A model generated the notes under the pieces. The model had not been told where the DNA came from. It saw only the letters and a program-made list of their open reading frames with translations, and ran no database searches. The position numbers and the translations under genes were made by a program. Source: Diphasiastrum complanatum (Eukaryota > Streptophyta > Lycopodiopsida > Lycopodiales > Lycopodiaceae). From it: DNA of 64,000 nucleotides. Shown here piece by piece: positions 4,276 through 45,568 of the stretch (position 1 is the first letter of the stretch; every line of letters begins with the position of its first letter). The stretch is taken from positions 35,088 through 99,087 of the forward strand of contig MU831874.1 of NCBI GenBank assembly GCA_029204225.1, written 5' to 3'.

Positions 4276-4278
4276 AGT

Positions 4279-4542
4279 CTTATAATGGCAGTTAAAGCTT
4301 TATCATTTTATTTAGGAGGACATAAATTTGTTAAGACAAATAAGATCATTTTTGTCAAAAGATCTTATGTTTTGAACATTTTAGGCTTTACTGATGGGAA
4401 TGTTCCTTTAAGGAGCTCCCATTATTCGTTGTATTCCACTTATATTGAGCTTAGTGGAAATAAGGATAATGCACATCTATTAGATGCATACGCTAGCAGA
4501 GAATTTCTTCATGACAATACTACCTACTACCATAGAATCTGA
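4279..4542 (+). pseudogene. Gene X, copy 1 (C-terminal fragment), unknown function
   Basis: This is an open fragment of about 87 codons ending in TGA at 4540-4542. Its product is similar to the minus-strand product at 29645-29990: IMAVKALS versus IMAIRALS, KIIFVKR in both, NVPLRSS versus DVPMRSS, and a C-terminal REFLHDNT versus KKFLHDHT. Upstream the similarity stops at the palindrome and direct-repeat cluster, so the 5' part is missing or displaced. It lies tail-to-tail with gene Y copy 1, about 240 bp apart, the same arrangement as at the second locus. I recognise no domain. Confidence 0.55.
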
Positions 4543-4778
4543 TACAAGATCTGATGATGAATAGTTGACACTTTGTATAATACAATCAATACATTTACAT
4601 TGGGTATTGCTCCTCTCTTGTTCAATGAATTTGCAAAGCAATTCTGAACATGTCATGATGATCTTCTACTCAGCAATGATGATCTTCTACTCAACAATCA
4701 TCTAATTTTCTCTTCCTGTATGAACTTGCATGCTTTTCTAAACTTGTTGTATTGTGTGGAATTTGTTATATGTCGAAT

Positions 4779-6844
4779 CTAAACTCTGCGGTAGAACCAC
4801 TGAAACAATTGACAAATGTAGTTTCGTTTTTCATTGGTTCCTCCATATTGTGTATTTCGATGAAATGCTGCTCGTGCTTGCCCGTGTGACTTCTCCATCC
4901 CTTGTGGTGACCATACACTCAAGCTTCCATATGTATTTGCAGTAAATGTTGTATGATCTCTTAGTATGTGCTGCATATGTCAAAATCATAATGTTAGTCT
5001 TATGTTTAGATCTAAATATATATGAAAATTTGAAAGCATTTTGAAAATTTTATACTAACCATGTAATGAGTGATGTGATCTTCTCCCCATGCTTTTGATA
5101 TTGCATTAACAAACTCGACACAAGTCCTTTGGACAGCTTTCTTATCAATATCAGAGTATTTTTTTTCTTAAAATAGCAATCATACTATCAAGCTTTTTCC
5201 ATACATCAACTTTTAGTACTCTGCTTTTGCCATCTTTCTTGAAGTCTTGAGTGGCAGCAATAATATCTGTCTAGACTGAGTGTTGAATATTAGAAGCCCC
5301 TGGAACATTGAGAAATCCTCCATCCATATGGTCCTTGATGATCCTAGGATAAGATGTCCTTGAGAATATCCATGATAATATATCATGATCCTCTTTCAGC
5401 ACCTGTCCAAAGAATTAATCATACTTAGTTTACAATGTATTAATACTATTCAATGAATGTAATGTAATAATGAGGCTAGTTACTTGAAACGCTGCCAACC
5501 ACCATGTATCATTTTTAGACAAGACACTGAATTTGAATTCTTATTGGTTCTCTGTTTGGGATAGAGCACCATTCATGAGAGTTATACTAATCCTTTCCAT
5601 CTTCTGCCCTTTCACAATTTCTGACTCGTCCAACTTAAGTACTATGATTATTTTGCCATTCACCTTTTCATAGGTTATATCATAGAATGTGACGATGTAT
5701 CTCAGCAAGTAATTTAGATCAACAAATAAATTGTTTGATGATTATAGAATATCGATCTTCCATCAGTTTCATACACATCCTCAATATGAAATGGAGTTCC
5801 AGTGATCTTACACATACCTATGTTTAATGTATCCCTCTCTTTCTTCAAGTGGTATGTCCTAGGGATTGGGACTTTTCTAATTTGAACTTGCTTAAAAGCT
5901 TCTCTAATTAGTTTAAATATTGTTGCATATGCTTCCCTACTAATACCTGCAAAATCACAAGCACCCTGAACTATAGTTTTATCTAAAATATTTTGAATGT
6001 CACCATCAAAGACTCTGCTATTTTACACTTTACATTTGAAATCCTATTGTTCATCATAAGACGCTCAGTGGATTTGGAAGTCAATATTGTGCCCAATGAC
6101 ATTCCTAGTGAAGCATTGTCTTTAATATTCCGAGGAGCTACTAATGCAGATCTGCAAAAAAAACAGATGGTTAACAGAATATCACCATAGCTGAAATTAA
6201 ATCCAAATGTAATTGAAAAACCTACAAAATTTAGAATATGCTTACTTGAATGCACGAATCCTTCTATTTCAATAACCTCCTTTTGAAAGTGTTTGAATAT
6301 CCTTGCAACTTTGTCGCTTTCGCTTCTTACTTTCAACCTTCTTCTTTACCAAATCCACATCCTTCAGTAATTGTAAGTTTTCAATATGAATAGACTGTAA
6401 GACTGATTGCAGTTGCTCTAGTTCTGATTTAATATTGATTGCTATCTTCTGTAATGATTCATTATTTTTTTTAAGTTGTTCATTTTCTTCTAACGTCTTT
6501 TGGAGATGACAATCTCTATTCTGACAATAAGAGGATATCCGAATTAACTCACCTTCTAAAAAGTGAACTTTATTTATATAAAGTTGTTTTCCATGGTTTT
6601 GCAATCTTTCACAATATCCTAGTAATCCACTATGCCCATTGCATATCCATGTAACTAAATGAGTTACTGAAGAGAATGTGGGATGTGTCAAAGTGATTGG
6701 ATCTTGTGGATATAATGTTCCATCTGTCCACAAATCCACGTTTTTCTTTCCTTTTGCCCTGTAACGAGAACGATCTTCAGCAGATATTTGAACTCCTTTG
6801 CCTCCTCTTCTCTGCAAAGGTGCCAAATCAACAGGGATATCCAC
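4779..6844 (-). pseudogene. Gene Y, copy 1: spliced, decayed, coiled-coil and transposase-like
   Basis: Reading on the minus strand, a long first exon (about 6844 to 6246) encodes a basic N-terminal part (RRGGKGVQ, DLWTDGTLYP) and then a coiled coil rich in Leu, Glu and Lys. Exon b starts after TTTGCAG at 6151 (SALVAPRNI, later QGACDFAGISREAYATIFKLI). A third segment ends KNDTWWLAAFQ at 5484. Exon d runs 5402-5060 and contains KVDVWKKLDSM and DHITHYM. Exon e runs 4970-4779 and contains SLSVWSPQGMEKS and a C-terminal FQWFYRRV. The introns at 5403-5483 and 4971-5059 have GT/AG ends. A TAG replaces the Trp codon found in copy 2, and at least one frameshift occurs near 6000, so this is a pseudogene. 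The C-terminal H...G(S)LS.W..QGMEKS...R.T..GG pattern recalls, from memory, uncharacterised transposon proteins; family assignment is open. Confidence 0.55.
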
Positions 6845-6899
6845 ATGTAGATGATATCATGTCATCATCAAAAAAATAATAGAGTAATCAGTTGCATCA

Positions 6900-7351
6900 A
6901 AGTACTATGACCAGATTCTATGAAGCAAAACAAAATACTTATCTTTGATTATAGTATATACTATGTACGATCAATCCAATCTCCATGCTTGTATGCTTGA
7001 TTCAAATTTGGAAATGCCGCTCATTTTTTCATTCCAATAGGTAGTTGGCGCTCATATTTCCATTCTCGTGGAAGGAATGCATATGTAAACATTTTGCAAT
7101 TTTTCTTGATTCGAATTTGGGGATGGCGGTCATATTCTAGATCCAGTGCAAATATTGCCCTTTTCGTAACCAATGGAGGAAATATTTTTGAATTTAGTCA
7201 AGTTATACTGCGAACTGTTAACAGTTCTTAACTGTGACTATAGACACTGTGGTTAGATCATTGGGAGTTGGGGAGGCCTTGGGAGTGGTGTGGGCAAGCA
7301 AATAAACAATATTGTTTTATTTATTTTGATATTTTTGTATATCCTACATGG
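6900..7351. other. No gene seen
   Basis: AT-rich spacer between gene Y copy 1 and the repeats before copia element A. It contains two similar stretches carrying TTCGAATTTGG or CAAATTTGGAAATG with CATATT (about 7009-7140), suggesting an old internal duplication, and no coding signal. Confidence 0.35.
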
Positions 7352-7395
7352 CATTCCTTAAAGGGTCTTTTTGATATTGAGAACTCCTCTAATGA
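7352..7395. repeat. Short dispersed repeat shared with 54611-54654
   Basis: Both sites carry a CTTAAAGGGTCTTTTTG block followed about 14 nt later by ACTCCTCTAATGA, in the same order and spacing. The shared segment is about 44 bp and probably belongs to an LTR or other dispersed element family. Confidence 0.6.
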
Positions 7396-7536
7396 GAGTT
7401 TAACCATCTCATGTGCTTACTCATAAAAGAAAAATATTGATATACCTAGACAATTTAGACACAATATAAGCTTATGAGAAAATCGACATAAATCCAACAC
7501 ACTCAGTCCAAGGTTGTTATGATATATCATAGTTGC

Positions 7537-18770: not shown

Positions 18771-19452
18771 TATTAAAAATTCACAATTCTAGCTTGACTA
18801 GTTTTGGTCATATGACTTGTAAATAGTTAGATGGTCATGATGTGGCTTGTCACACGTGCCAAATAGCATAGGATTCCATTCATAAGGATGTTCTCAAGTA
18901 GACCTAAGTGTTAGAAACTTTGGAATGAGTCCAAATTATGCTTAGATACAAGGGAGAAAAAATAGGAGCTATTTTTGGTAATTTTTGCATTGTTGAGGGA
19001 TCTCCAAGATTCCAACCCTAAATTTGTAGGGATGAAAGATCCACCAAAATTAGCATTAGGGATAGGTTTAGGGCTACTCATACCTGCCCAAAATCGTGAT
19101 GGATCATGTATATATAGGTGATGATATCTCACCAAAATCAATCAAGCAATTTCATGTTTTTTCTCTCATAATGGTGCAATTGCTCTCTATGTTCATAATT
19201 GTTTGAGTACTTGTGATTACTAATGATTATAGGATTGAATGTAGGTCTGGTGTACAGTACTCAGACTGTGGGAGGCCGTACTTTCACACGTGTGAAGCCT
19301 TCTTCAAGGATTTGGGCCATTTAGTGAGGTTCAAGCCTAGATTTTTGATGGATTTTGATGGTTCAACTTGTGCTAATCTTATGAAATCATAATCTATTGT
19401 TTCCCTCATCATTTCAAGTGTTTTAGGATCCTTATTTGCTGTAATTTTTACA
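18771..19452 (+). repeat. L2 5' LTR (682 bp)
   Basis: Ends in TTTTTACA; its first bases are TATTAAAA where the partner has TGTTAAAA, one change in the terminal TG. A TATA-like string GTATATATAGG near 19108 could be the promoter. Confidence 0.9.
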
Positions 19453-19464
19453 TGGTATCAGAGC
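19453..19464 (+). other. L2 primer-binding site
   Basis: TGGTATCAGAGC directly follows the 5' LTR and matches the complement of initiator tRNA-Met. Confidence 0.9.
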
Positions 19465-19964
19465 CTAAAGGCTGAAATGAGCTAAATCCTTGGTTTTCAT
19501 TCATTTTGATCACAATTTTTGATCTAAATCTTGTGTAGATTGGATCTTAGCATCTAGTATTGATTCTAGAACTCAAAGTGAGTTAAATACATTGGAGATT
19601 GGTGTTGTGTGACTTCATTTGCAGGTGTTTAGGTGTCTAAAACCAGAGGCAAAGTTGAATTCAATTCACATTACCAAGATAGCAAGTTTTGCTTGCTCCA
19701 AGCATTGATTTCTAAGCGAGTTTTGGAGGTGATTTCATAGAGGAGGCTTTCTAGCATTCAAGGAGAGGGAAGATCAGAGTTTTGGGGACTCTTCAAGGCT
19801 GTTCTAAGGTGTAGTAGACACCTCTTAAAGTGATTTAGGTTCAGTCCAACCATTGCTTGACTTATGCACCAAATTAGATCAATTTTTCATCAATTTTGAT
19901 CATTTTTTGCTTGTGATTGGATAGTAGATTGTGTTGCATCCTCATTAAGTTCCATTTAGATCTT

Positions 19965-22916
19965 TTACAAGTGATTTTGGAAGTATATTAGGTTTCTGAA
20001 ATTCACTCTTGATCTTGAGTTCCAAGATCTCGAGGCTTGCTTCAAGCCATAGATGCTTCTTTGGAGATGGCATACTTTGTTCTCCATTCCATGCTTGATG
20101 AACCCTTGTGGCTGCTCCATATAGATATCTTCTTCCAAAAAACCATTCAAGAAAGCATTAGAGACATCCATTTGACATAGAATCCATCCAAAATGTGATG
20201 CAAGTGCAATGATTAGTCTTATTGTGACCATATTGGCCACGGGTGCAAAAGTTTCCTCATAGTCTATCCCTCTCTCTTGAGCATAACCTTTTGCAACTAA
20301 TCTTGCTTTATGTTTGTTAACACTCCCATTTGCATTCAACTTAAGCTTGAAGACCCACTTGCATCCTATTACATTCCTTTGAGGTCTCTCAACAAGCAAC
20401 CAAGTTTCATTCTCAATCAAGGCATCATACTCATCCAACATAGCTTTATACCATTCTTTGGAGTTCAATGCATCTTCAACATTTGACGGTTCTTCAAAAC
20501 TAGATAAAGCATAAGAAGTGGATGAGATACCCTCAACTTGCTGTCCTTTGCCTTGATATGTGAGCCTTGATGGCTCCACTTTTGCCCTTGAAGATCTCCT
20601 TGGTGTGATAGGTGGGTTTGGTGCTTGCTCCTCCATGAGCTCCTCCTCAAAACCAAGATCTTGCTCCTCAGCCATCTTCTTCTTGATTGTTGGAGCACTT
20701 GAGCCTTCTTCAAGCATATGCATATGATGTTCATCAAAGATGACATCCCTTGAAACAACAAATTTGTTCAAGGATGGGAGATAGACTTTGTAGCCCTTGC
20801 TTGAGCTTGCATATCCAAGCATGATCCCTCTTGTGGAAGATGGATCCTCCTTGGTTCTTGTTTCCAATGGCACATGCACATAACATATACACCCAAAAAC
20901 TTTCAAGTGATTAAGATTGGGTTTCTTTCCATACAACATCTCATAAGGAGTTTTGCCTTCAATTGCTTTGCAAGACACCCTATTCATCAAGTAGTTTGCA
21001 CATACAAGAGACTCACCCCAAAAGGATTTGGGCAAACAAGCATCTAATCTTAAAGCCTTAGAACATTCACATAATGTTCTATTCCTTCTTTCAGCAACTC
21101 CATTTTGTTGAGGAGTGTAAGGACAAGAAGTCTCTTTCTTGATCCCTTCCTCCTCACAAAAGGTCTTGAACTCATTGGAGATGAATTCTCCACCATTGTC
21201 ACTTCTAAGAATCTTGATGCTATGATTATGATGCTTTTCCACAAACAACTTGAACTTTACAAAAGTATCAAATACTTGAGACTTGAAGGAAAGTAAGAAC
21301 ACCCAACAATATCTTGAGTATTCATCAATGAAGGTTAAAAACATGGATGAACCTCCATTAGATTTGGTGCTAGCAATGTGCACATCCGAGTATATGAGTT
21401 CAAGAGGATGAGATGACTTTGTGATGGAGTTAGGAAACACCTTCTTATGTGCCTTGGATAAGGCACAAGCTTCACAAACCTTGTCTTCCTTCCCAATAGA
21501 CCTTGGTAGGCCTAAAGCATATTCCTCCTTGATCATAGCCTCCATGGAACCCGAGTTGACATGTCCAAGTCTTTTGTGCCATAAAGTAAAGGTAGATATT
21601 TTGTTCTTCTCGGCCAACATGACAACATTAGTATCCACAAATGCATCCAGCTTATAAAGTTTGCCAAGTCTAGTGCCCTTAGCCACTATCTTACCCTTCT
21701 TCTTGATGAAACATTCATTTGAAGCAAAGTCAACATTGAAACCATTGTCTACCATTTGGCCAACACTTAGTAGATTCTTTGTTATTGTAGGAATGTACAA
21801 AACACCTTCTATGTTGATCTTTTTGGAAGATCCTAAGCAAAGGGGAATGGTACCAACTCCTTCAATCTTACAAGCTTCATCATTTGCTGTATAGATAGAC
21901 TTTATAGGTCCATCATAAGATAAGAGAGAAGAGAAAAACTCCCTTTTACTAGTCATGTGTGAACTAGCACCCGAGTCAATCCACCAAGGATCTTCTCCTT
22001 TGAAGCTTGTTGAAGAAAATATGGACATCATGAGAGAGTCCTCATGTGAACTCTCCTCCTCCTCCTCTTTGCTCATGTTGGCTTGGCTTTGATCTTGCTT
22101 CCTCTTGAAGCATTCCGAGGCATAATGCCCCATCTTGCTACAATAGTAGCACTTCACCTTTGATTTGTCCTTCTTGACTTTGGTGGTTGATGGAGATGCC
22201 TTTGGGGGTCCTTCTTGATCCTCAAGCTTTGTAGACTTCTTGAATGTTGATCCTTTGCCTTTGGACTTGCCTTTGCCTTTGGTGAAGAGAGCTTGGTCAT
22301 CTCCACCTTGGATGGAAAGCCTATCCATCCTCTCTTGCATTTGGCTCCTTCTTGATTCCTCGGCCATGAGTGTGCCTTGGAGTTCTTCAAGTATGGGTAG
22401 CTTACCCATAATTGCATATCCCTGAACCAAATTGTCAAATTCAAAGCTTAGTCCATTCAATATGAGTTGAACAAGCTCTTCATCCTTGATAGGGTCACCT
22501 ATAAAGGCTAGCTCTTTGTTCAATTCCTTTACTCTTAGGACAAAAGTATGTGCACTCTCTCCTTTCTTTTCATAGCTTCTATAGATTTGATTCTTCAAAG
22601 CTAACATTCTAGTTTGGTTCTTGGATTCATAGACCTTTTGCAAAGTCTCCCAAGCATCTTGAGCTGAAGTGCAATCTCCTACCTCTCTTAAGAGTTCATT
22701 TGCAACATTCATTTTTATGCAATGTAGTGCAACATTGCACCTCTTGATGTATTTGGCTTTTTCTTGAGGATGAATAGGTTCACCCTCCTTACCATTTACA
22801 ATTTCCATCAGATCTTGCATGATCATGATAGATTCCATTCTAACTTTCCATATGGAATAGTTAGTTTTGTTGAGCCTTTCATTAGTATCCAAAAGATATG
22901 CATTTATAGATGCCAT
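19965..22916 (-). CDS. L2 gag-protease-integrase-reverse transcriptase (N-terminal part), inverted
   Basis: One uninterrupted 983-residue minus-strand frame. Domains in order: gag (1-250, with LNKTNYSIWKVRMES); a zinc knuckle CYYCSKMGHYASEC (256-269); protease active site WWIDSGASSHMT (Asp314); GAG-pre-integrase with a His/Cys zinc site (LWHKRLGH, CEAC; 445-484); integrase core with Asp511, Asp573 (RSDNGGEF) and Glu609 (NGVAERRNRTL); and the start of copia reverse transcriptase (from about 820: CKWVFKLKLNANG, HKARLVAKGYAQ, QMDVSNAFLNG, SIYGLKQASRSW). The last ~18 residues leave the family consensus at the inversion point. All visible catalytic residues are present. The frame is antisense to the LTR promoter, so normal expression is unlikely. 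Confidence 0.9.
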   Translation of the reverse strand: MASINAYLLDTNERLNKTNYSIWKVRMESIMIMQDLMEIVNGKEGEPIHPQEKAKYIKRCNVALHCIKMNVANELLREVGDCTSAQDAWETLQKVYESKNQTRMLALKNQIYRSYEKKGESAHTFVLRVKELNKELAFIGDPIKDEELVQLILNGLSFEFDNLVQGYAIMGKLPILEELQGTLMAEESRRSQMQERMDRLSIQGGDDQALFTKGKGKSKGKGSTFKKSTKLEDQEGPPKASPSTTKVKKDKSKVKCYYCSKMGHYASECFKRKQDQSQANMSKEEEEESSHEDSLMMSIFSSTSFKGEDPWWIDSGASSHMTSKREFFSSLLSYDGPIKSIYTANDEACKIEGVGTIPLCLGSSKKINIEGVLYIPTITKNLLSVGQMVDNGFNVDFASNECFIKKKGKIVAKGTRLGKLYKLDAFVDTNVVMLAEKNKISTFTLWHKRLGHVNSGSMEAMIKEEYALGLPRSIGKEDKVCEACALSKAHKKVFPNSITKSSHPLELIYSDVHIASTKSNGGSSMFLTFIDEYSRYCWVFLLSFKSQVFDTFVKFKLFVEKHHNHSIKILRSDNGGEFISNEFKTFCEEEGIKKETSCPYTPQQNGVAERRNRTLCECSKALRLDACLPKSFWGESLVCANYLMNRVSCKAIEGKTPYEMLYGKKPNLNHLKVFGCICYVHVPLETRTKEDPSSTRGIMLGYASSSKGYKVYLPSLNKFVVSRDVIFDEHHMHMLEEGSSAPTIKKKMAEEQDLGFEEELMEEQAPNPPITPRRSSRAKVEPSRLTYQGKGQQVEGISSTSYALSSFEEPSNVEDALNSKEWYKAMLDEYDALIENETWLLVERPQRNVIGCKWVFKLKLNANGSVNKHKARLVAKGYAQERGIDYEETFAPVANMVTIRLIIALASHFGWILCQMDVSNAFLNGFLEEDIYMEQPQGFIKHGMENKVCHLQRSIYGLKQASRSWNSRSRVNFRNLIYFQNHL

Positions 22917-23158
22917 CTAGTCTCCTAATCAAGGACTTGACACAAATGAAGGTTACTTCTATTGATTTGATTGAAGGTCTACCTTATCCCACTTCTTAGG
23001 GACCTGAAAAGATCAGTAATAGACTTCCTATAAAGATCTAAGAATGATCTCTAACAAAATCAAATCATAGAATACTAGAAACAATGCACTTGCTTGATTG
23101 AAGTAGACAATACTAGTAGAATTGCCCCTCTTTCTATAAAGAACATTAAAGCTTCCAA

Positions 23159-24196
23159 ATGGTTCAAAGTGAATATGATCCCACTCTTTACATTAAGTTT
23201 GATGATGTTGGTATTGTATTTTTACTCATTTATGTAGATGACATCATCATTAGTGGAAATAGTGTTGATGGTATTGAAAAAATCAAGATAGATCTATCCT
23301 TAGAGTTCAAGATGGTAGATCTAGGGTGTCTTCACTTCATCTTAGGCATAGAAGTACTTAAAGCGTCTGATTTTATCTTTATAAGTCAAGTAAACTATGC
23401 TCAAAGTCTTTTGAAGAAGTTTAAGATGGAAGTATGCAAAAGTGTTGACACACCAATGGAGCAAGATGTAAAAGTGCCAAATGAAGATGATGAAAGATCC
23501 TTCATGGACATCACTTTGTTTAGGCAACTTATAGGTTCCTTAATGTGGATCACCATAACTAGACCAGATATTAGCTTTAGTGTATGTAGGTTGAGCCAAT
23601 CCATGCAAAAGCCATTGAATATCCATTGGAAAAAGGCTAAGAGGATTCTAAGATACATCTCGGTTACATTGGATTTTGGGATTCTATATAGAGGAGATGT
23701 GATTAACCTTCATGCATTTAGTGATTCAGATTTTGCAGGGGACAAGAGGGATAGGAAATCAACAAGTGCCTATTCAACTTTCATAGGAGAAGGTGTGGTT
23801 TCATGGCTTTCAAAAAAGCAAGAAACTATATCTCTATCTTCAACCGAGGCCGAGTACAAAGCTTTGACAACCACTACAAAGGAGGTACTTTGGATCAAGA
23901 GATTATTGGTGGAACTAAAGATCATGGATTCAGAGGAGGCACCAATCATCTACAATGACAATATATCAGCCCAAAACCTTGCATCTAACCCAATCTTCCA
24001 TGCAAGATCTAAGCACATTGAGATATGCCATCACTTTGTGAGAGAAATGGTGCAAGCCAAGGAGATTGCTTTGGAGCATGTTCCAAGCAATGAATGTGTA
24101 GCTGATCTACTTACTAAACCACTTCAAAATACACCTTTTATGAATTTCAGATCATCACTTGGAGTGATTAGTAAAGCAATGATTGAACCAAGCTAG
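23159..24196 (+). CDS. L2 reverse transcriptase (C-terminal part) and RNase H
   Basis: A 345-residue plus-strand frame. It starts within the copia reverse transcriptase just upstream of the catalytic box YVDDIIISGN and continues through LHFILGIEVLKASD and LIGSLMWITITRPDISF. The RNase H domain shows SDSDFAGDKRDRKSTS, SLSSTEAEYKAL, YNDNISAQNLASNP and the usual end VADLLTKPL. There are no internal stops. The ATG at 23159 is unlikely to be a real start: in an undamaged element this region is the continuation of the long frame at 19965-22916, which lies on the other strand here. The purine tract and the 3' LTR follow directly, as expected. Confidence 0.9.
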   Translation: MVQSEYDPTLYIKFDDVGIVFLLIYVDDIIISGNSVDGIEKIKIDLSLEFKMVDLGCLHFILGIEVLKASDFIFISQVNYAQSLLKKFKMEVCKSVDTPMEQDVKVPNEDDERSFMDITLFRQLIGSLMWITITRPDISFSVCRLSQSMQKPLNIHWKKAKRILRYISVTLDFGILYRGDVINLHAFSDSDFAGDKRDRKSTSAYSTFIGEGVVSWLSKKQETISLSSTEAEYKALTTTTKEVLWIKRLLVELKIMDSEEAPIIYNDNISAQNLASNPIFHARSKHIEICHHFVREMVQAKEIALEHVPSNECVADLLTKPLQNTPFMNFRSSLGVISKAMIEPS

Positions 24197-24210
24197 ATAG
24201 TGAGGAGGAG

Positions 24211-24892
24211 TGTTAAAAATTCACAATTCTAGCTTGACTAGTTTTGGTCATATGACTTGTAAATAGTTAGATGGTCATGATGTGGCTTGTCACACGTGCC
24301 AAATAGCATAGGATTCCATTCATAAGGATGTTCTCAAGTAGACCTAAGTGTTAGAAACTTTGGAATGAGTCCAAATTATGCTTAGATACAAGGGAGAAAA
24401 AATAGGAGCTATTTTTGGTAATTTTTGCATTGTTGAGGGATCTCCAAGATTCCAACCCTAACTTGGTAGGGATGAAAGATCCACCAAAATTAGCATTAGG
24501 GATAGGTTTAGGGCTACTCATACCTGCCCAAAACCGTGATGGATCATGTATATATAGGTGATGATATCTCACCAAAATCAATCAAGCAATTTCATGTTTT
24601 TTCTCTCATAATGGTGCAATTGCTCTCTATGTTCATAATTGTTTGAGTACTTGTGATTACTAATGATTATAGGATTGAATGTAGGTCTGGTGTACAGTAC
24701 TCAGACTGTGGGAGGCCGTACTTTCACACGTGTGAAGCCTTCTTCAAGGATTTGGGCCATTTAGTGAGGTTCAAACATAGATTTTTGATGGATTTTGATG
24801 GTTCAACTTGTGCTAATCTTATGAAATCATAATCTATTGTTTCCCTCATCATTTCAAGTGTTTTAGGATCCTTATTTGCTGTAATTTTTACA
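24211..24892 (+). repeat. L2 3' LTR (682 bp)
   Basis: TGTTAAAA...TTTTTACA, preceded by the purine tract GAGGAGGAG (24202-24210) and followed by the target duplication TATAT. It is about 99% identical to the 5' LTR by eye. Confidence 0.9.
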
Positions 24893-26060: not shown

Positions 26061-26636
26061 TAGAGAAGTTACAAAATCCAAAAGGGTCGTCTAAGGAATG
26101 TCACGTAGGACAAAAAAATCGTCGGATTTTGGAAATCCAATGGACTTTCAAGTCCAATCTAGCTTAACCTTACCAATAATGTGTAGTTAACATGAGACTA
26201 TTATGACGCATGCAACTGCGACTTCAAAAACCTATGACGCTCATTAACTAACTTTTTCAAATTTGAAATTGAGATTGTGTCCCTCGTTTTAACTAGTGAG
26301 AGAATAAACATAGAATCTCGGTACGTCATGGAAGAAGAAGAGGATCTGATTTTTCCTGATCTGCCAACTGATATTTGCGGAGATGTCTCAGTTTCAACTA
26401 CATATTGTTCTCCCTGTCGAGAACGCTCCAATATCCAAAAGAGGAGCAGTGACCGGATCCGCAGTTTCTCCACTTGATATTATCGCTCATAGAATCAACT
26501 AAAAGAAAACTACGATTTTGTTTGACGAAAGTTTGTATCCATTGGATCTGCGCTCAATGCAATATCCACAATTTCAATCCATCACACAACTCATAACATT
26601 TTTGTGTGAAGGAAAAAATGTTTGACTGGGTAAAGA

Positions 26637-29568
26637 TTGAGGACTTATGGTGTTGCAAACTCGGTTCATAAAATCCAAAGCTTAGAATGTATGTTGAATG
26701 GTTTGCTTGCTGACTATAGAGAAAAAAAGACCACATTATTACAAACAAAAGAGGATAATGCACATTTTCATAATATTATCTTGAAATTAAATGAAAGTAA
26801 TGATCAACTGCAAGAAGTTGTTCAGACATTATGTATATCAAATGATCAGTTAAAAGAAGAAACTCACGTACTAGATAAGAAATTTAAAAAAAAAATAAGC
26901 GAAAAAGAATGTTGAAGGACATTGATGAGCTCTCACTAAATGGAGGCCAACACAAAAAAGGGATTCAAGAATGAGCATCTAAAAGACTATGCATATAAGA
27001 TAATATCCAATGTAAGCTTTGTAGGCCCAAAAGAGCTATTAGCCTTAAGAACAAGGCGGTTCTCTCTTTAAGCCCTTCAAAGTAACTAATAAGGACAATA
27101 GTCCAATAAGGGCCCAATGTAGTTTAAATAATACTTAACAAGGGATAACTATCCCTCAAGATAGTTAAGTTAAGTTAAGTAAGAGCATTGTCTATAACTA
27201 GACAAGAGACATCATTTTGTGAATCTTTTGGCTCATTTGCAAGTAAGAGCTTCTAGCTTCCTTGTGAATGCAAGCCATAGGGATCTCCATTGCTAGGTCT
27301 CATGTGCCCTATCCACATAAATCAATGCTCCATTTTCATTTATTGTACTCTTTCTTTCATTTCTAATGCAATTCCACTGTGATCCCATCATTTCTAGCTT
27401 TCTATTGATATGCTATCATGAATGTCTTGTTCTCTTCTTGCTTCTAGCTTTACTTCATTGCTATTGCTATTAGTTTGGGATTCGGCACATGACATTTCTT
27501 GGTATCAGAGCATAGATCCTAAATCCATGACGATTCTATGTGAATTTCATTAGATTTGATAAGTTTATTGCATTTGTAGCTTTCTTTTTACTAATTTTTA
27601 ACTTTGAATTTTTTAGTTCTGTTCAAAAGAATTTAGCATTCAATTTTGTTTTTTTATTTCTAATTGGATTCCATAGGTTTGTAGATCTTTGTTTCAGCTT
27701 TCATTTTCACCAATTTGCAAGCCATTTGGGTAAGAGATACAAAAGTTATTGCAATTTTCCCAATAGGTGTCAAAATAGGTGACTAGAATTTTCCTTTTTT
27801 GAATTTTTTAGATTTGATTTGAATTTTTATTTCAAGTTTCTTTACATAAGATTTTCAAGCATTGTCATAGCTTTGATTTGATTTATTGGTATCCAAAGAG
27901 TTATGACAATCCTTGATTCCTAGCTCTAGTTTTGTTAGTTTTCTTTCTTCAAAATTTTCAGACCTGTTCTGTGGTTAATGTGACCTATCAAATCACATTC
28001 AATCATTGATCTGATCCTAAACGCTGATAGAGCTTGTTGTTAGCTTTTCAGAGGTACTAAGTTTGTTTGATTTGGATCAATATTAAAAAAGTTATGATCA
28101 AATTAATGGAGATGGGTCAAAATTGCCAAAATTTTGAAAATTTTTGTTGAATTTTTTGTAAGTGAGAAGCACTTCAAATTTTCAATTTTGAAGTTTCGTT
28201 TCTGTTGTAAATTTTTTTCAAATTCTTCATTTTGAAGTTTAATCCAAAAAAAAAACTGACCTAGCCCTACCTGCGGCCTGTCCTAACCCTAAGAACTACA
28301 AGAACCAAATAATAATAAGAGAAACTCCCAGCCTCCCTACGAATTCACCTCGGCCTTCTCCCCACACATGTGAGCTCCCATTCACCTCCTGGCAATTTCC
28401 TTGCCGAATTCACTTTTGGCGATTTCTTAGCGAATTCAGATTTGGCGATTCTTTCTTCCCTTCGTGACTTCACCCCACCCTGCACGATTTCAGAATTCCC
28501 TTAGAATTCACGCTTCCCCCATGATTTCACCCCCCACGAATCCAGCCCCCTCTCGATTCACCACAAATTTAACCCCCCCTCATGATTGCCCATGTATCCA
28601 GCCCCCCTCGATTCCCCACGCGATTTTCCTCCATCGTTCCACAATTCCACACGCCCCCCCTCTTCGCCATTATTTTGTGAATCTTTTGGCTCATTTGCAA
28701 GTGAGAGCTTCTAGTTTCCTTGTGAATGCAAGCCATAAAGATTTCCATTGCTAGGTCTCATGTTCCCTATCCACATGAATCAATGTTCCATTTCCATTGA
28801 TTGTACTCTTTCTTTCATTGCTAATGCAATTCCATTGTTTCTAGCTTTCTATTGATATGCTATCATGAATGTCTTGTTCTCTTCTAGCTTCTAGCTTTAC
28901 TTCATTGCTATTGCTATTAGTTTGGGATTTGGCACATGACATAGGAGGAGCCAAAGCTTGTCAATTTTTATCAAATCATTCCAAAAAGTCAACAAGGATT
29001 CAATACTCGGTTTGGAAAGATATTATTTTTGCAACGCAAGACTTTGAAAATAAAGGAACATCAAGGCTTAAGAAGGTTGAAGTTTGGAAAAAGCTCGATA
29101 AGATGGTTGAAGTGCTTAGAAAAGACAAAATCTCGTATGCAGATGCACTCCTACTGGAGAAAACAACAACAAAGTTTGTTGATGCAGTTCACGTAGCTTG
29201 GGGCTTAAATCACATCACCCACTACATGGTAAGATACTTTCAAATTTTTAGTACAAATTTATTAATTCATTATAACTTGCTTGATAGATTCTAAATGCTT
29301 GTTTTTCTAACTAATGCATAAATCTTTGATATTGCAGTACATACTAAGGTATCATGCATCATTTTTTGTAAAAAAGTATGGCAGTTTGAGTATATGGTCC
29401 TCACAAGGAATGGAGAAATCAGATTGGCAGGCAAGAGCAACATTTCATTGAAATACACAACATGGTGGAACATCCTCAAAGAATAGTTACATCATTCAAC
29501 CATTCCAATGGTTTTATAAACGGGCTCAAGTTTTCAAAAAAGCATGTAAATTTATAAGCCAAAACTAG
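26637..29568 (+). pseudogene. Gene Y, copy 2, interrupted by an LTR element
   Basis: The coiled-coil exon (26637 to about 26975, plus strand) matches copy 1 in layout and in the basic end KRKRMLKDIDEL versus KRKRQSCKDIQTL. The middle exons are missing, replaced by an LTR element ending at 28941. Similarity resumes at about 28950 with RIQYSVWKDIIFATQDF, KVEVWKKLDKM and AVHVAWGLNHITHYM, up to a donor GTAAGA at 29229. The last exon starts after TTGCAG at 29338 in phase 0, the same intron position as in copy 1, and has SLSIWSSQGMEKS. A TGA stands where copy 1 has an Arg codon (CGA to TGA) before the C-terminal FQWFYKR. A stop near 29568 ends the longest reading. It is non-functional. It lies tail-to-tail with gene X copy 2. 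Confidence 0.55.
27010..28941 (+). mobile_element. Non-coding LTR element inside gene Y copy 2
   Basis: The segment 27213-27494 is repeated at 28671-28941 (both end GGCACATGACA) as direct LTR-like copies. The primer-binding site TGGTATCAGAGCAT (27500-27513) follows the first copy. The left LTR probably begins near 27011 (TGTAAGCTTTG); the right one is truncated at its 5' side at about 28671, next to a C-rich tract. The 1.15 kb between holds no gag or pol signal; a proline-rich open stretch at about 28464-28670 is compositional. No target duplication could be matched. It resembles non-autonomous large or terminal-repeat retrotransposon derivatives. Confidence 0.65.
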
Positions 29569-29644
29569 ATTGATGCATTAATTCAAGATAAAATGTGTGA
29601 TCAACAATTCTCATATCACATACATTCAATGAAAAAGAGTACAT

Positions 29645-29995
29645 TCAATTTTTTGCATTGTCTCTAAAGATAATTTGTGATGTGTGGTCATGGAGGAACT
29701 TCTTCCTATCATACGGATCCAAAAATCGAGTGAATCTTCTTTTGCTTAGATCTATATATCCTAATAGAATTGCCAAAGCAGATGATCTCATAGGAACATC
29801 TTCTGACACACAATTGAATACTCTAAAAGCAATGTCTCTTTTGACAAAAATGATTTTATATGTATTTTTTTGGATATTTATGCCCTTGAGAAAATAAAGA
29901 AAGGGCCCTAATGGCCATGATTATAGTTCTCGCATTCAAAAAGAACCTTTCGTGATGAATACAAATTTTGTTATCTACAAAATGTTTCAAGTAAT
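29645..29995 (-). pseudogene. Gene X, copy 2, frameshifted
   Basis: The minus strand ends with FLHDHTSQIIFRDNAKN and a stop at 29645-29647. It contains DVPMRSSALAILLGYIDLSK and, after a frameshift near 29870, HYLKHFVDNKICIHHERFFL and IMAIRALSLFSQGHKYPKK. These match gene X copy 1 (4279-4542) in order and spacing. Further minus-strand open pieces at about 30230-30350 (EFENFIAFNDGDLRDDIDYE, acidic) may be an upstream exon of the same gene; copy 1 lacks that region, so this cannot be confirmed. Function unknown. Confidence 0.5.
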
Positions 29996-30599
29996 GAGAC
30001 AAGGAGGCATCCTTCTGCCTTCTTGTCTCTCTCTCAAGCCTCCATGTCTGTCCGCAAAGGCATCAATTTCCAAGGTTTCTTGCAATACATAAATAAGTGT
30101 TTGTCAAACTATCAGATCAATCATCCGTTATACGAAAAATACTAAATGTATCTATGGCCAACAACAATGGTCGATGGATGGTCGGCTGGAATAATATGTG
30201 TGGGAGCTGGAGGCCTCTACAGGGCATCTGTCGCACTTGCCCATTCTTCTTGGTACTCATAGTCGATGTCATCTCTAAGGTCGCCATCATTAAAAGCAAT
30301 GAAATTTTCAAATTCAGTAATCATACTAGACAGAAGAGAAAGTATCTTATCTTCTCTGACTTCTTGTCTTGCTTACTAGCATTAGACTTTTTGTATTATG
30401 CATCAAACAGAAAGTATATAGTTCGCGAACAATTTCGTGTCGCGTCTTGTAACTTACAGATTAGAAAGATTAAACATCTACAACTAATTCGTCAAATTAC
30501 AAGAGTGGCAGATTAGCCACGATCTAGAACACTTCTGATGATGTTATAATATCAGATCAGATATTTGTACCCCATGGTACTTGGTTGATCTTCTTGGCT

Positions 30600-30900: not shown

Positions 30901-32016
30901 CCTGAAAGGAGAGAAAAAATGCCGAAGGTTATTTGTTTTGAAGAGTAACGTTCCTAGCCACTTCCGTAATTTACGAAGTGAGAGAAAACCACTTCACGTA
31001 AAATGCGAAGTGAGAGATTTTGCAACGTCCTCATCTGCGTCCACGATCCTGATCTGCTGACCATATATATACTATGTATAGTTGTCACAAAAGCCATATA
31101 CTTTCAAGTACAACAACTTTTCTGATCAGGTGACAAACATTCAATGTAATTAATACACAAATGAAATCTATAAATAGATCATCCAAGCACAAATTAGTGG
31201 TTGCTCTATCCATGAGACATATTATTTGAGCCTCCCAGTTATGTCGTCAATTTTTTGTTATAATTGCTATTTGTATTGTGCTTCAGTGTAATATAGCAGC
31301 AGTAGCTGTTCTATCTATGTATAACGTAGATGAATGCTTGTTGTGATTGAATGCACTCTATCGTTGTTTGATCACGCTTGTTTACTCACTCTGATCAAAA
31401 CAGGGACGTCTACAGATCCTCAATTTCTGATCAAACGATGGCTGTCTTTGATGCCTGAGAGGGAACTCGTGATGTTATACTGCTCTTCCATTTATTTTAG
31501 AACCGTACTTCACATTGAATTTGATTTTCAGTAATACCACACACAAACCATTTCTAATCTCTTCGATGGACTGTACTTTCATTTTTGAGAGTATGAATTA
31601 ATTTTTAAGATCATGTTGGCCAATGAGAATACTTAAAGCTGTGATTACATTTAGCATAAGTTGTCTATTAGACTGTTTTTGCATCTAGCAGCTGATTAAA
31701 ATGGGAGAGCTGTTCCGCAATATTCCTGCTCTCTTCTCCGTTCGCGTTCTTCTATCTTCCTTGCCCCATCAGATTTATACTACCGTTCAACAAAGGATAA
31801 ATCAAGGCATGTTGGTTCATATAAAATGAGACTCGGCAAATATTTTTTGACTCAATTCGATACATATGTTTGTCCCACACGTAACCAACATCATCAAAGG
31901 AATAAGCATTGATATTGTCATTTGTTTCCTTCTCACACCCAATGCATCATCATTATTAGAGGATGATATAATATCCTCCATGCCTCCAGATCTCATGTCA
32001 GTCAGATCAACCCTTG
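30901..32016. other. No gene seen; promoter-like TATA string at 31168
   Basis: AT-rich non-coding sequence. CTATAAATA at 31168-31176 is a good TATA-box match and is followed by a possible leader, but no coding frame or LTR boundary follows, so its use is doubtful. Confidence 0.3.
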
Positions 32017-32936
32017 TGTTACGCCGGCGCCTCAAAGGGCGCTGGGACTTGAGCGGTATCCCCAACACGTGCTTAAGTCTAACATTCATCCATCATGCAC
32101 TTACATAAAAGCCAACTCAGAAACGTAACAAGCTTAACCATTCAGACTTAAGAAAACTGGAATCCCAACCAACCCAAAAGCCAACTCAGAATCCGTCCCC
32201 AAAAGGTAACCAAAGGCAAAGACAAGCCACACATGAAACCCAAGGCATAGTGGTCGCCAAACTGACCAATTGGCATAGCGGCAAGCCCCATGTCGATGAC
32301 AGGGACCCCTAGGTGCCAGCGACGCAAAAAGGTTGTAGTAAGGGTCCTTCCACTTGGACCAGTCCCGGAGGCGAAACTGAAATGGTAATCATCCCCAAGG
32401 ATCAACTTTATTAGATTTGGAAGAGGTTACATTCATACATAGACTGACCGATCTCGGGGCCACCAACACGTGCTGGGCATTGTGCCTGGCTCGTGCTGGT
32501 AGAGGGAGCTGAGACCTGGCGACTGGATTCCTGGCGCTGGTTGAGCTGCCCAAGTTTCTGTCTGCCGGACTCCCCCTATAGTTCTGCTGTGATTCGGCGC
32601 ACCCCCTCTGGTTTGAAACATAGTGCTTTCTGGTAAAGCACGCTTTTTAGGACTTAGTTTTTATTTTGTTGACTAAGCCTGGCAAGCCTGGCAGAATCAG
32701 TTTGGCTCCCGGACATGGGTCCCGGGAGCCGTCCCGGCGGCCGAATCAACCTGCTTTCCTGACTAGGCCATGACTCGAGCTCCAGAGCTAGCTCATGACT
32801 TTGTGACTACTTGACTGGCTCACCACAGGTCGGAGGCTCAGTCCTTGACGTTCTAACTTGCTCTGGGACCTTAGGGAGTGTCACCCCTTTGAGTCTTACA
32901 GGGCACGCTGGGTGCACCCGAGTCAGCTTTACAACA
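32017..32936 (-). repeat. G/F-family 3' LTR (920 bp)
   Basis: Near-identical in reverse complement to 46924-47841. On the minus strand it has TGTTG at its start and AATAAAG (complement at about 32407) as a candidate polyadenylation signal. It is preceded by a purine tract, marking it as the 3' LTR. Confidence 0.85.
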
Positions 32937-36896: not shown

Positions 36897-37409
36897 ATTT
36901 TTTTTTTTAAATGTGTGGCTGAGAGCCCACCAGGGCCAAATGCCTCCCACGGCACCGCTTTGGAGATGCGAGGCCCCTTGCCCGTGGGTCTGGGTGGGAG
37001 GAGTGGCCTCTTTACATTTTTGTTTTGGTGTATTCATAACAGGCAGGAGAGCATCCCACGTCTACGACCCATCTTCCAGAGGCGATGGGACTGCGGCAAA
37101 GAAGCTAGAGCCTAGTAGCACGTAACTACACGTTTGTTGAACACCAACTCCAAGCTGGAGCTGTGGAGTTTGACACACAAGGGGAATCATTAATCTGTCA
37201 AAATCTTTAGAGCACATTGCCAAGTCAAATGCTGTCATAAAGGTTTGTTGATTTCTCAAAGTCATCAGCTCATCGCTTCCTGTAGATGATCAGCTGGCCT
37301 GTGTCCTGTTACAATTCTTTAATGTTTCAGTTAATCCTGCGACACGCACACCTTAACTCTTTCCGGCACACTTGTAAATACAATTCTAAAGTCAGAATCT
37401 GCATGCGCA

Positions 37410-37418
37410 TATAAAATA
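37410..37418 (+). promoter_or_regulatory. TATA box of dirigent gene 1
   Basis: TATAAAATA lies 75 bp upstream of the chosen start. A GCATGCGCAT string just before it resembles an RY (CATGCA-type) element. The mirror copy is at 45126-45134. Confidence 0.55.
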
Positions 37419-37492
37419 CGCAATGGAGCGATCTGATCACTACATTTGTTATTGCACAGTTGCTCGAAATATACACTTATCAGTGTATCACA

Positions 37493-38026
37493 ATGCAGCT
37501 CCTTAAAGCCATTTTGATGGTGTTCTTCCTTACTAGCTGTGTGCAGGGTGAGGTGGAATCAGAGAAGAAGGCAGTGTGGCTCCATTGGTATATGCACGAC
37601 ACACCTTACAGTGGGCCAAATTCATCTTCCGTAGCCGTTACAGGCTCTCGCGATTTTCGGACTGAAATTGCTAACAATTTGCTTGGACAGATCTACGTGT
37701 TCGACGATCCGCTAACCCAGGGTTGTTCTCTAACATCTGAAAGCTTTGGAAGATCTCAAGGCACTTATTTTTATGTTTCCAGGGAAGAAATAGTTGGATG
37801 CGTGAGCTACACAGTTAGTATCCGAACTGGAAAGTACAACGGCAGCACTCTCAACATCTTTGGAGCTAACCCAAATTCCAGAGTAATCAAAGAATATTCT
37901 ATCGTGGGAGGAACAGGACAGTTTACCCTTGGAAGGGGAATCCTCCGGGAAGAGGTTGTCAAACTTTTTGGACCATTCAGTGCATCAGCCACCTTATCAT
38001 ACAATGCCACTATCTATTTAGATTAA
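37493..38026 (+). CDS. Dirigent-family protein, copy 1
   Basis: An intronless gene of 177 codons. Dirigent proteins are secreted plant beta-barrel proteins that guide stereoselective coupling of phenoxy radicals in lignan and related phenolic synthesis; the substrate here is unknown. The ATG at 37493 is preferred over an in-frame ATG at 37460 because it gives a compact signal peptide (1-19, LLKAILMVFFLTSC). The mature part shows family blocks: HWYMHDTPYSG (31-41), GQIYVFDDPLTQGCS (65-79, with the Asp pair), FGRSQGTYFYVSREE (85-99), KYNGSTLNIFGANP (114-127) and VVGGTG-like IVGGTGQF (137-144). The end YNATIYLD matches the family's final strand. N-glycosylation sites lie at Asn43, 116 and 171. 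Length is typical (about 170-190). An almost identical copy is inverted at 44518-45051. Confidence 0.9.
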   Translation: MQLLKAILMVFFLTSCVQGEVESEKKAVWLHWYMHDTPYSGPNSSSVAVTGSRDFRTEIANNLLGQIYVFDDPLTQGCSLTSESFGRSQGTYFYVSREEIVGCVSYTVSIRTGKYNGSTLNIFGANPNSRVIKEYSIVGGTGQFTLGRGILREEVVKLFGPFSASATLSYNATIYLD

Positions 38027-38374
38027 GTCAGAAATTACATCTTCAATATAATTGCTTCTTTGGTTAGAATTTCCATATGCTGGCTACATAATTGATCAAG
38101 TTGAAAGCCATGTAAGGTAGATGGATGAGTTGCAGATCCATGCATGAAGAGAGTATTCCTATTCGTAAGTCACTATGAAGTGTAGCAGCCATTTTAATTC
38201 TACACAAGTGTATTACATAAAATATACTTTCATCATTCATTCTGATCACACTCAGCTTCGGAAAGACTAGGCTGTCAGGCCGATGCAACTTGCCTTTAGA
38301 TTTTATGTCTTGACTGTAAGACATTGTCTTGAAGGTAGTGAGTACTCTTAAAGATGAGAATTAAGTGGTCTTAA

Positions 38375-44169: not shown

Positions 44170-45563
44170 TTAAGACCACTTAATTCTCATCTTTAAGAGT
44201 ACTCACTACCTTCAAGACAATGTCTTACAGTCAAGACATAAAATCTAAAGGCAAGTTGCATCGGCCTGACAGCCTAGTCTTTCCGAAGCTGAGTGTGATC
44301 AGAATGAATGATGAAAGTATATTTTATGTAATACACTTGTGTAGAATTAAAATGGCTGCTACACTTCATAGTGACTTACGAATAGGAATACTCTCTTCAT
44401 GCATGGATCTGCAACTCATCCACCTACCTTACATGGCTTTCAACTTGATCAATTATGTAGCCACCATATGGAAATTCTAACCAAAGAAGCAATTATATTG
44501 AAGATGTAATTTCTGACTTAATCTAAATAGATAGTGGCATTGTATGATAAGGTGGCTGATGCACTGAATGGTCCAAAAAGTTTGACAACCTCTTCCCGGA
44601 GGATTCCCCTTCCAAGGGTAAACTGTCCTGTTCCTCCCACGATAGAATATTCTTTGATTACTCTGGAATTTGGGTTAGCTCCAAAGATGTTGAGAGTGCT
44701 GCCGTTGTACTTTCCAGTTCGGATACTAACTGTGTAGCTCACGCATCCAACTATTTCTTCCCTGGAAACATAAAAATAAGTGCCTTGAGATCTTCCAAAG
44801 CTTTCAGATGTTAGAGAACAACCCTGGGTTAGCGGATCGTCGAACACGTAGATCTGTCCAAGCAAATTGTTAGCAATTTCAGTCTGAAAATCGCGAGAGC
44901 CTGTAACGGCTACGGAAGATGAATTTGGCCCACTGTAAGGTGTGTCGTGCATATACCAATGGAGCCACACTGCCTTCTTCTCTGATTCCACCTCACCCTG
45001 CACACAGCTAGTAAGGAAGAACACCATCAAAATGGCTTTAAGGAGCTGCATTGTGATACACTGATAAGTGTATATTTCGAGCAACTGTGCAATAACAAAT
45101 GTAGTGATCAGATCGCTCCATTGCGTATTTTATATGCGCATGCAGATTCTGACTTTAGAATTGTATTTACAAGTGTGCCGGAAAGAGTTAAGGTGTGCGT
45201 GTCGCAGGATTAACTGAAACATTAAAGAATTGTAACAGGACACAGGCCAGCTGATCATCTACAGGAAGCGATGAGCTGATGACTTTGAGAAATCAACAAA
45301 CCTTTATGACAGCATTTGACTTGGCAATGTGCTCTAAAGATTTTGACAGATTAATGATTCCCCTTGTGTGTCAAACTCCACAGCTCCAGCTTGGAGTTGG
45401 TGTTCAACAAACGTGTAGTTACGTGCTACTAGGCTCTAGCTTCTTTGCCGCAGTCCCATCGCCTCAGGAAGATGGGCCGTATACGTGGGATGCTCTCCTG
45501 CCTGTTATGAATACACCAGAACAAAAATGTAAAGAGGCCACTCCTCCCACCCAGACCCATGGG
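44170..45563 (-). repeat. Right arm of the 1.4-kb inverted duplication
   Basis: Reverse complement of 36966-38374. The inner end is TTAAGACCACTTAA (44170-44183). The outer end is interrupted by LTR element E after GGGCAATG; the last 15 bp of the homology resume at 51493. Confidence 0.9.
44518..45051 (-). CDS. Dirigent-family protein, copy 2
   Basis: Intact 177-codon mirror copy of the gene at 37493-38026, with the same signal peptide, family blocks and glycosylation sites. The one amino-acid difference is at residue 56 of the preprotein, Gln here (CAG) and Arg there (CGG), in the segment SRDFxTEIA. Upstream (45052-45300) the promoter region, including the TATA string at 45126-45134, is conserved. 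Element E is inserted about 500 bp upstream of the start, so the distal promoter may differ from copy 1. The near identity suggests a very recent duplication or gene conversion between the arms. Confidence 0.9.
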   Translation of the reverse strand: MQLLKAILMVFFLTSCVQGEVESEKKAVWLHWYMHDTPYSGPNSSSVAVTGSRDFQTEIANNLLGQIYVFDDPLTQGCSLTSESFGRSQGTYFYVSREEIVGCVSYTVSIRTGKYNGSTLNIFGANPNSRVIKEYSIVGGTGQFTLGRGILREEVVKLFGPFSASATLSYNATIYLD

Positions 45564-45568
45564 CAATG

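Follow-up and report, generated by a model that had tools for sequence, protein, structure and literature searches.

The convergent pair of genes X and Y present in the 64-kb stretch of DNA analyzed here (hereafter, the window) is a worn fragment of a large and abundant plant DNA transposon. In full, this element measures 8-10 kb, is bounded by terminal inverted repeats (TIRs) of up to 35 bp and has three conserved genes: Y, X and a gene for a histone H3-like protein. Read from the Y-side end, complete copies carry Y (pointing inward, with four exons), X (running towards Y) and the H3-like gene (in the same direction as Y). The first-pass annotation of the window had proposed a two-gene unit; X and Y indeed belong together, but the complete element has the H3 variant as a third conserved gene. 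The far-end ~2.7 kb (L029:7559-10000 and L013:1-230) holds only short open frames, of up to 94 amino acids, and a small fourth gene is possible there. The assembly searched has 1.74 Gb in 5176 contigs, with C1 to C23 measuring 42-102 Mb where shown.

Within the window, the pair had been reported twice, in mirror orientation, and both units were located by tblastn with opposite polarity (Table 1). In unit 1, Y lies on the minus strand in four pieces, from 6865 to 4701; X, on the plus strand, is represented by its C-terminal piece. The span originally given to this unit, 4279-6844, does contain the pair, but the element extends to its true end at 7394. As most other copies continue well past window position 4276, the window copy is truncated on that side and lacks the distal part, which would comprise the H3-like gene, the second terminal repeat and the 5' half of X. 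Neither of the two window copies is intact. Unit 1 contains in-frame stops and has lost ~474 bp of Y exon 3, a deletion that takes out the second conserved D together with the CxxC motif (LAGDLK...HPCLYC); 442-475 bp are present at this place in 19 of the 20 genomic copies fetched, and the remaining one (L010) does not span it.

Unit 2 has Y on the plus strand, from 26368 to 29571, and X on the minus strand, from 30357 to 29678. Here too the pair was found where it had been placed (26637-29995), with limits that had to be moved outwards: its start is at 26368 or earlier, and it extends to 30357 or further. The insertion inside its Y is flanked by direct repeats of ~280 bp, 91-92% identical to each other. 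A predicted GT...AG intron after HITHYM lies at the same place in both Y genes, as had been noted from the sequence. When family-1 queries were compared with unit 2 by tblastn, matches were obtained for Y exon 3 (from L018, E 9e-33), Y exon 4 (the window's own, E 5e-28), Y exon 1 (from L027, E 3e-12) and X (from L027, E 9e-11), a resemblance that, judged by these scores, is far beyond chance. Since Y exons 3 and 4 share only ~54% protein identity between the units, we assign them to two families, 1 and 2; they did not arise by one recent duplication. Relatives of family 2 number at least 150 in the genome (67-100% identity). No H3-like match was detected by tblastn in the window, unit 2 included. 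A CATTAGAG-like stretch at 26058 was considered as the end of unit 2 and dropped; the same bases fit, by eye, a decayed copia gag.

Table 1 Features of the two units in the window (positions are those of the window)
Feature	Position	Strand	Basis
Left-truncated family-1 element copy (given Y strand)	4276..7394	-	Limits of blastn matches to 20 genomic copies
Y-side terminal inverted repeat, ...GGGTCTTTTTGATATTGAGAACTCCTCTAATG|, exact element end	7363..7394	-	Common end among copies and inverted match at far end of four copies
Y exon 1 (coiled coil), in-frame stops in window copy	6246..6865	-	tblastn with open exon 1 of L027, 92%
Y exon 2, first conserved D (LKLDESE), broken in window copy	5484..6151	-	tblastn; intron borders seen in copy L018
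Y exon 3, deletion of ~474 bp at 5298/5299	5060..5402	-	Gap relative to other copies; exon content from L018 and L055
Y intron after HITHYM, unit 1	4971..5059	-	GT...AG borders, same position as in second unit
Y exon 4, GSLSVWSPQGMEKS with conserved E	4701..4970	-	tblastn, sequence comparison
Gene X, C-terminal piece, ends FLHDNT...IESDTRSDDE	4276..4563	+	tblastn, 95% with X of L027
Unit 2 as a whole (family 2, strand of Y)	26368..30357	+	tblastn
Unit 2 Y exon 1 match	26368..26631	+	tblastn; coiled-coil-like frame continues to about 26910 by eye
LTR-like insertion of ~1.7 kb inside unit 2 Y	27210..28942	.	Direct repeats 27210-27495 and 28668-28942
Unit 2 Y exon 3 end	28941..29228	+	tblastn
Unit 2 Y intron after HITHYM	29229..29337	+	GT...AG borders
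Unit 2 Y exon 4	29338..29571	+	tblastn
Unit 2 gene X, broken	29678..30357	-	tblastn, 31-42% against family-1 X

Other features were observed in the window. A copia element at 18773-24512 has 300-bp direct repeats, 99% identical, and carries gag-integrase-RT (19965-22916) on the minus strand and RT-RNase H (23150-24196) on the plus strand, as if inverted internally. Two inverted copies of 1.4 kb, 99% identical and 5.8 kb apart (36978-38374 and 44170-45566), contain two genes that we take to be dirigent-like; further inverted matches lie near them, 32016-32936 pairing with 46924-47842. A sequence resembling the right end of the element occurs at 54621-54652 (26 of 32 bases in a pattern scan, end at 54652) with no recognised body adjoining.

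The mobility of the X/Y pair was established by comparing its genomic copies. A DNA search of the genome with the reported span returned at least 78 matches from the best 40 of 4713 candidates; among the matches listed, those covering the main part were 92-97% identical, the window's own match set aside. For comparison, 20 copies (9.9 kb each) were selected for their similarity to the reported X/Y span, irrespective of H3 content. Their matches to the window stop at 7377-7398, and 20 of the 21 copies (window included) have the terminal 13 bases on the Y side in common, with one change in L009; the 20 copies sharing this end have 12 different 20-bp flanks, and copy L025 is without it. Ten copies were extended in search of the far end: four, with differing flanks, reached an inverted end and thus have both terminal repeats (L009, L013, L016 and L017), and none was present in the stretch examined of the other six. 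The lengths of the four insertions are 9257, 10010, 7753 and 8865 bp (7.8-10.0 kb), and their terminal repeats match over the first 32 bases at 32 positions in L016 and L017, where the repeat reaches 35 bp, at 30 in L013 and at 25 in L009. Inverted repeats at both ends were thus found together with dispersed insertions, exact ends and empty sites, as in class II TIR DNA transposons.

No target-site duplication was found in any of the four copies with both ends; of the TIRs and target duplications that the first-pass annotation had advised looking for in full-length copies, these four have the TIRs alone. The joined flanks of L009 gave 40 scored genome matches, all running across the junction, and the four empty sites fetched read TTTTACTTAAAA/GTAGG, compared with TTTTACTTAAAA/GTAAG in the joined flanks, i.e., one substitution and no base gained or lost. 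Likewise, the 40 scored matches of the joined L016 flanks cross the junction, and the four sites fetched read GGGAG/ATAGC like the flanks. The target junctions are therefore TTAAAA/GTARG (L009) and GGGAG/ATAGC (L016), and empty sites without gain or loss indicate that these two insertions added the element and nothing else. Because most L009 matches exceeded the query length by 6 bp, a CATATG target split by the element was also considered; the fetched sites, in which the 6 bp lie elsewhere in the flank, spoke against it and it was discarded.

These results bear on one rival explanation, namely that X and Y are host genes spread through segmental duplication. Common flanks do make it probable that several copies arose by segmental duplication (L011-L015; L016 and L019; L017, L020 and L022; L023 and L024). 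Against this possibility, 12 flanks are joined to one exact end, inverted repeats occur at both ends, and the empty sites, located in repeats elsewhere, already refute it; we attribute practically no probability to it. The X/Y pair is real and mobile: the idea that X and Y travel as one unit is borne out by the shared Y-side end, the 12 flanks and the inverted far end of four copies, and the finding that would have spoken against it, X and Y lying mostly apart with no shared ends, was not obtained, Y exon 1 being present in all 20 copies and X in 18 of them.

The third gene was recognized at L020:622-1164 (minus strand), where the predicted product matches the Pfam Histone profile (E 3.9e-29) and H3 chains in PDB (E 4.5e-22), so that its sequence is that of an H3-type histone fold. 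The frame continues some 200 residues past the fold in L018 and L023; for this extension, DUF6870 was a weak match (E 0.02-0.03), under the Pfam/NCBIfam cut-offs. The H3 core is present in 18 of the 20 copies picked by X/Y similarity, the other two (L010 and L025) being truncated before it. Relative to L020, only two of these 18 cores, those of the near-identical L020 and L022, are free of frameshifts and stops, a count that is too low because the reference L020 is itself frameshifted near its end. Open H3-like frames of ~331 amino acids without stops do exist elsewhere, e.g., at C7:71814475 and C10:35033675. A genome search with the H3-like sequence, in which the best 150 of 7420 candidates were scored, gave 150 matches with 85-100% identity. 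The H3 domains of the element are 47-55% identical to the canonical H3 of the host.

We further analyzed whether the association of Y, X and H3 recurs beyond family 1. Among the matches listed by the genome search with the Pfam Histone profile (best 150 of 6325 candidates scored, 153 rows), 13 rows scored 164-165 bits, 137 scored 95-110 bits and three partial ones had 83-84 bits. The 13 small histone loci fetched comprise one canonical H3, two canonical H3 exons, L049, L044 and eight loci of a family that we call A. The H3 of L049 is distantly related to that of family 1 and has the same continuation. Next to an open exon 3 of a family-2 Y, locus L053 contains X (E 1e-18) and an H3-like frame, 46% identical to that of family 1 (E 2e-30) and followed by a homologous extension (E 1e-31 over 324 columns) that carries stops. 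In a third family, two exons of Y were found upstream of L049, in locus L052: exon 1 (40%, E 3e-50) and exon 2 (E 2e-13). An X-like piece of 25 residues, with an E value of only 0.03, lies on the opposite strand of L052; L052 and L049 were compared as separate stretches, 1.7 kb apart. The starts of the H3-like frames of families 2 and 3, MARTKQT and MARTEST, resemble the H3 N-terminus. The gene content of these loci indicates that families 1 and 2 share the order Y, X, H3, and that family 3 shares the order of Y and H3, with X as a weak fragment.

The same association was observed by position. When 137 of the 150 listed H3-like rows (the 13 canonical ones left out) were set against the 150 listed family-2 Y rows, seven H3-like positions were found 3.1-3.5 kb downstream of a family-2 Y, on the same strand, where random positions would give 0.12 pairs within 5 kb. 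One of these pairs is the L053 locus, and three with equal scores (on C5, C289 and C1254) are probably duplicates of one; the other pairs in the count were one on opposite strands at 2.3 kb and two at 24-36 kb. This is countered by 134 H3-like positions of the Pfam Histone search (153 rows, with the 13 canonical and six others left out), none of which has a listed family-2 Y closer than 15 kb; those fetched are mostly of family A. Family A (L040-L043, L045-L048 and L054; eight loci fetched) includes L054, whose upstream frame starts with MARTKQTARG and has a proline-rich stretch before the histone fold. The 2.4 kb upstream of one family-A H3 are without X or Y, so this family may belong to something else. 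L044 represents another H3-like type (IKKYQKSTRLLLLRAPFMRIIKK...), 48% identical to canonical H3. The recurring order of Y, X and H3, together with the seven Y/H3 pairs, identifies H3 as a long-kept component of the element.

It could be argued that the H3-like gene is a passenger, i.e., a host H3 that was captured and copied along with no role for the element. Such a capture, by a hAT element, has been documented in Dothideomycete fungi (PMC6710886), and the H3 copies of family 1 have evolved almost neutrally among themselves. In samples of 10-14 copies per gene, with near-identical ones dropped, the H3 core had a dN/dS of 0.75 and its extension one of 0.89; X gave 0.47-0.58 and the Y exons 0.60-0.96. 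These values indicate that most copies are dead and decaying neutrally. A different picture emerges between families. In the 125 codons compared between families 1 and 2, identity is 51, 68 and 41% at codon positions 1, 2 and 3, as in a protein under selection. In addition, the H3 domains are far from the canonical H3 of the host, a homologous extension is fused to them in families 1 and 2, and their place and strand relative to Y are kept in three families. The H3 domain evolves faster than Y, yet its fold is kept in the sequence. For these reasons we regard a mere passenger as decidedly improbable.

Another possibility is that the H3-like protein derives from centromeric CENH3 and is used to reach, or to act at, centromeres. 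The shared residues LLIPRAPF and KDF, Ser at the position of H3 Thr107, the extra loop 1 residue of family 1 and the Trp of family 2 are reminiscent of plant CENH3. The hallmarks of CENH3 are a longer loop 1 and the loss of Phe84. Family 1 has one extra residue in loop 1 and keeps Phe; family 2 has a loop of the same length and Trp instead of Phe84; and family 3 has the same length and Phe. Counting against this origin, no lengthening of loop 1 is seen in the aligned families other than family 1, and families 1 and 3 retain Phe84. When the identity and Pfam Histone searches are combined, H3-like copies occur on each of C1 to C23, among the matches listed. In PDB, a segment of Arabidopsis CENH3 likewise has its best scores with H3/CENP-A chimeras and H3, so the nearest matches do not decide. 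A host CENH3 was not recognized among the 150 rows listed in the H3-like genome search, the best ones being canonical H3. On balance, we consider a centromeric origin and use rather unlikely, while giving it more weight than the passenger explanation.

As to the enzyme that moves the element, Y is probably a transposase, judging from its conserved residues. By eye, these are a D in LKLDESE, a D followed by CxxC in LAGDLK...HPCLYC and an E in GSLSVWSPQGMEKS; Y proteins of families 1 and 2 are 55-69% identical, and all these candidate catalytic residues are kept. An hhalign comparison of two Y sequences with one RAG1 core (checked against PDB) gave a score of 26.0 and a P value of 0.015 with a probability of only 3%, whereas 30 shuffles reached a maximum of 19.8 and the reversed sequence 17.1; the alignment places the second D/CxxC and the E of Y onto those of RAG1, with the first D just outside. 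This likeness suggests a lead rather than membership. Y had no relative in Pfam, NCBIfam, PHROGs (exon 3) or PDB, apart from one chance PDB row (E 0.85); exons 2-4 had no Pfam match and hence no recognised hAT domain; and exon 3 found no relative among 43 pattern stretches of IMG/VR. Neither did X have a family in Pfam or NCBIfam, a weak row for Baculo_LEF5_C (E 0.08) lying under the cut-off. The initial statement that neither protein could be placed in a known transposase superfamily is thus in line with these searches. The term "undescribed", also used then, is likely, though not proven, to be right on the basis of the databases compared.

DDE transposases usually leave target duplications, which counts against a DDE reading of Y. 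Accordingly, we also weighed that Y is not a DDE enzyme and that a recombinase of another type inserts the element without duplication, the active protein being X or an unseen gene. All four sites without duplication, the exact empty sites at two of them and the lack of database matches for X and Y speak for this alternative, as do the short open frames, the only ones in the far-end 2.7 kb. On the other hand, the D, D+CxxC and E of Y are kept, the last two align in order with the catalytic residues of RAG1, and TIRs are typical of DDE elements. We therefore think it unlikely that Y is not the DDE enzyme, although this alternative deserves slightly more credit than H3 as a passenger.

The best explanation as a whole, which we hold with fairly good confidence, is that of an X/Y/H3 transposon whose Y would be a DDE enzyme inserting without duplication and whose H3 would be part of nucleosomes. 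According to this model, Y would cut at the terminal repeats and join the element ends to bonds that face each other directly in the two strands of the target; with no gap to be filled, no duplication would result. With weaker inference, the H3 variant might be incorporated into nucleosomes, either those of the element itself or those at chosen targets; the H3 extension or X would be candidates for the specificity of such nucleosomes, and it is tempting to speculate that the element H3 helps to escape silencing or to choose sites. These observations suggest that selfish elements may bring their own chromatin protein along, the role of the predicted H3 being a guess. A more far-reaching proposal is that of a new superfamily of eukaryotic DNA transposons, without target duplication and with a long-kept H3 of its own, perhaps derived from CENH3, whose private C-terminal extension would mark element or target chromatin to escape silencing or guide insertion; we put it forward tentatively, as a possibility that may well not be upheld. 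Histone H3 is a DNA-packaging protein, and plant transposons are silenced via histone marks. If a lineage keeps its own H3 variant beside a transposase, it would represent a direct molecular case of a selfish element acting on nucleosomes, and the co-evolution of transposons and chromatin would become testable. Duplication-free insertion by a possibly RAG1-like enzyme would also be of mechanistic interest.

Several known systems share part of these traits. Transib elements have a 5-bp target-site duplication and ends starting with CACWRTG, and RAG1-RAG2-like elements carry two convergent genes. The element described here resembles them in the order D, D+CxxC, E within Y, a likeness with weak sequence support, and in the two convergent genes between TIRs. 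It differs from Transib in that no 5-bp duplication was found (none of four copies, with two empty sites) and its ends start with CATTAGAG, and from both in the presence of an H3 gene and of an X without match in Pfam or NCBIfam. The Spy group (PHIS superfamily) has TIRs and inserts in AAATTT without duplication. TIRs and the absence of duplication are common to both, whereas the target junctions of L009 and L016 bear no AAATTT. Helitrons lack TIRs and insert between A and T; in contrast, TIRs are present here and the insertions lie between A and G, and between G and A. VANDAL plant transposons carry VANC, a DNA-binding anti-silencing protein; they would be similar as plant transposons with an accessory gene for chromatin, although VANC is not a histone.

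In the literature searched, in one case by a rather specific phrase query that makes a weak test, no closer precedent was found than the capture of H3 by fungal hAT elements. The hAT elements of Pyrenophora, Pseudocercospora and relatives contain a captured host H3, generate 8-bp duplications and encode a hAT transposase (PMC6710886). Unlike them, the plant element shows no duplication at the four insertions with both ends, and no recognised hAT domain. What they have in common is a DNA transposon with TIRs, an H3 sequence and many copies, that of Pseudocercospora being ~9.5 kb according to the same text (PMC6710886); what sets the plant element apart is an H3 that is highly diverged, has a C-terminal extension and is kept across diverged families.
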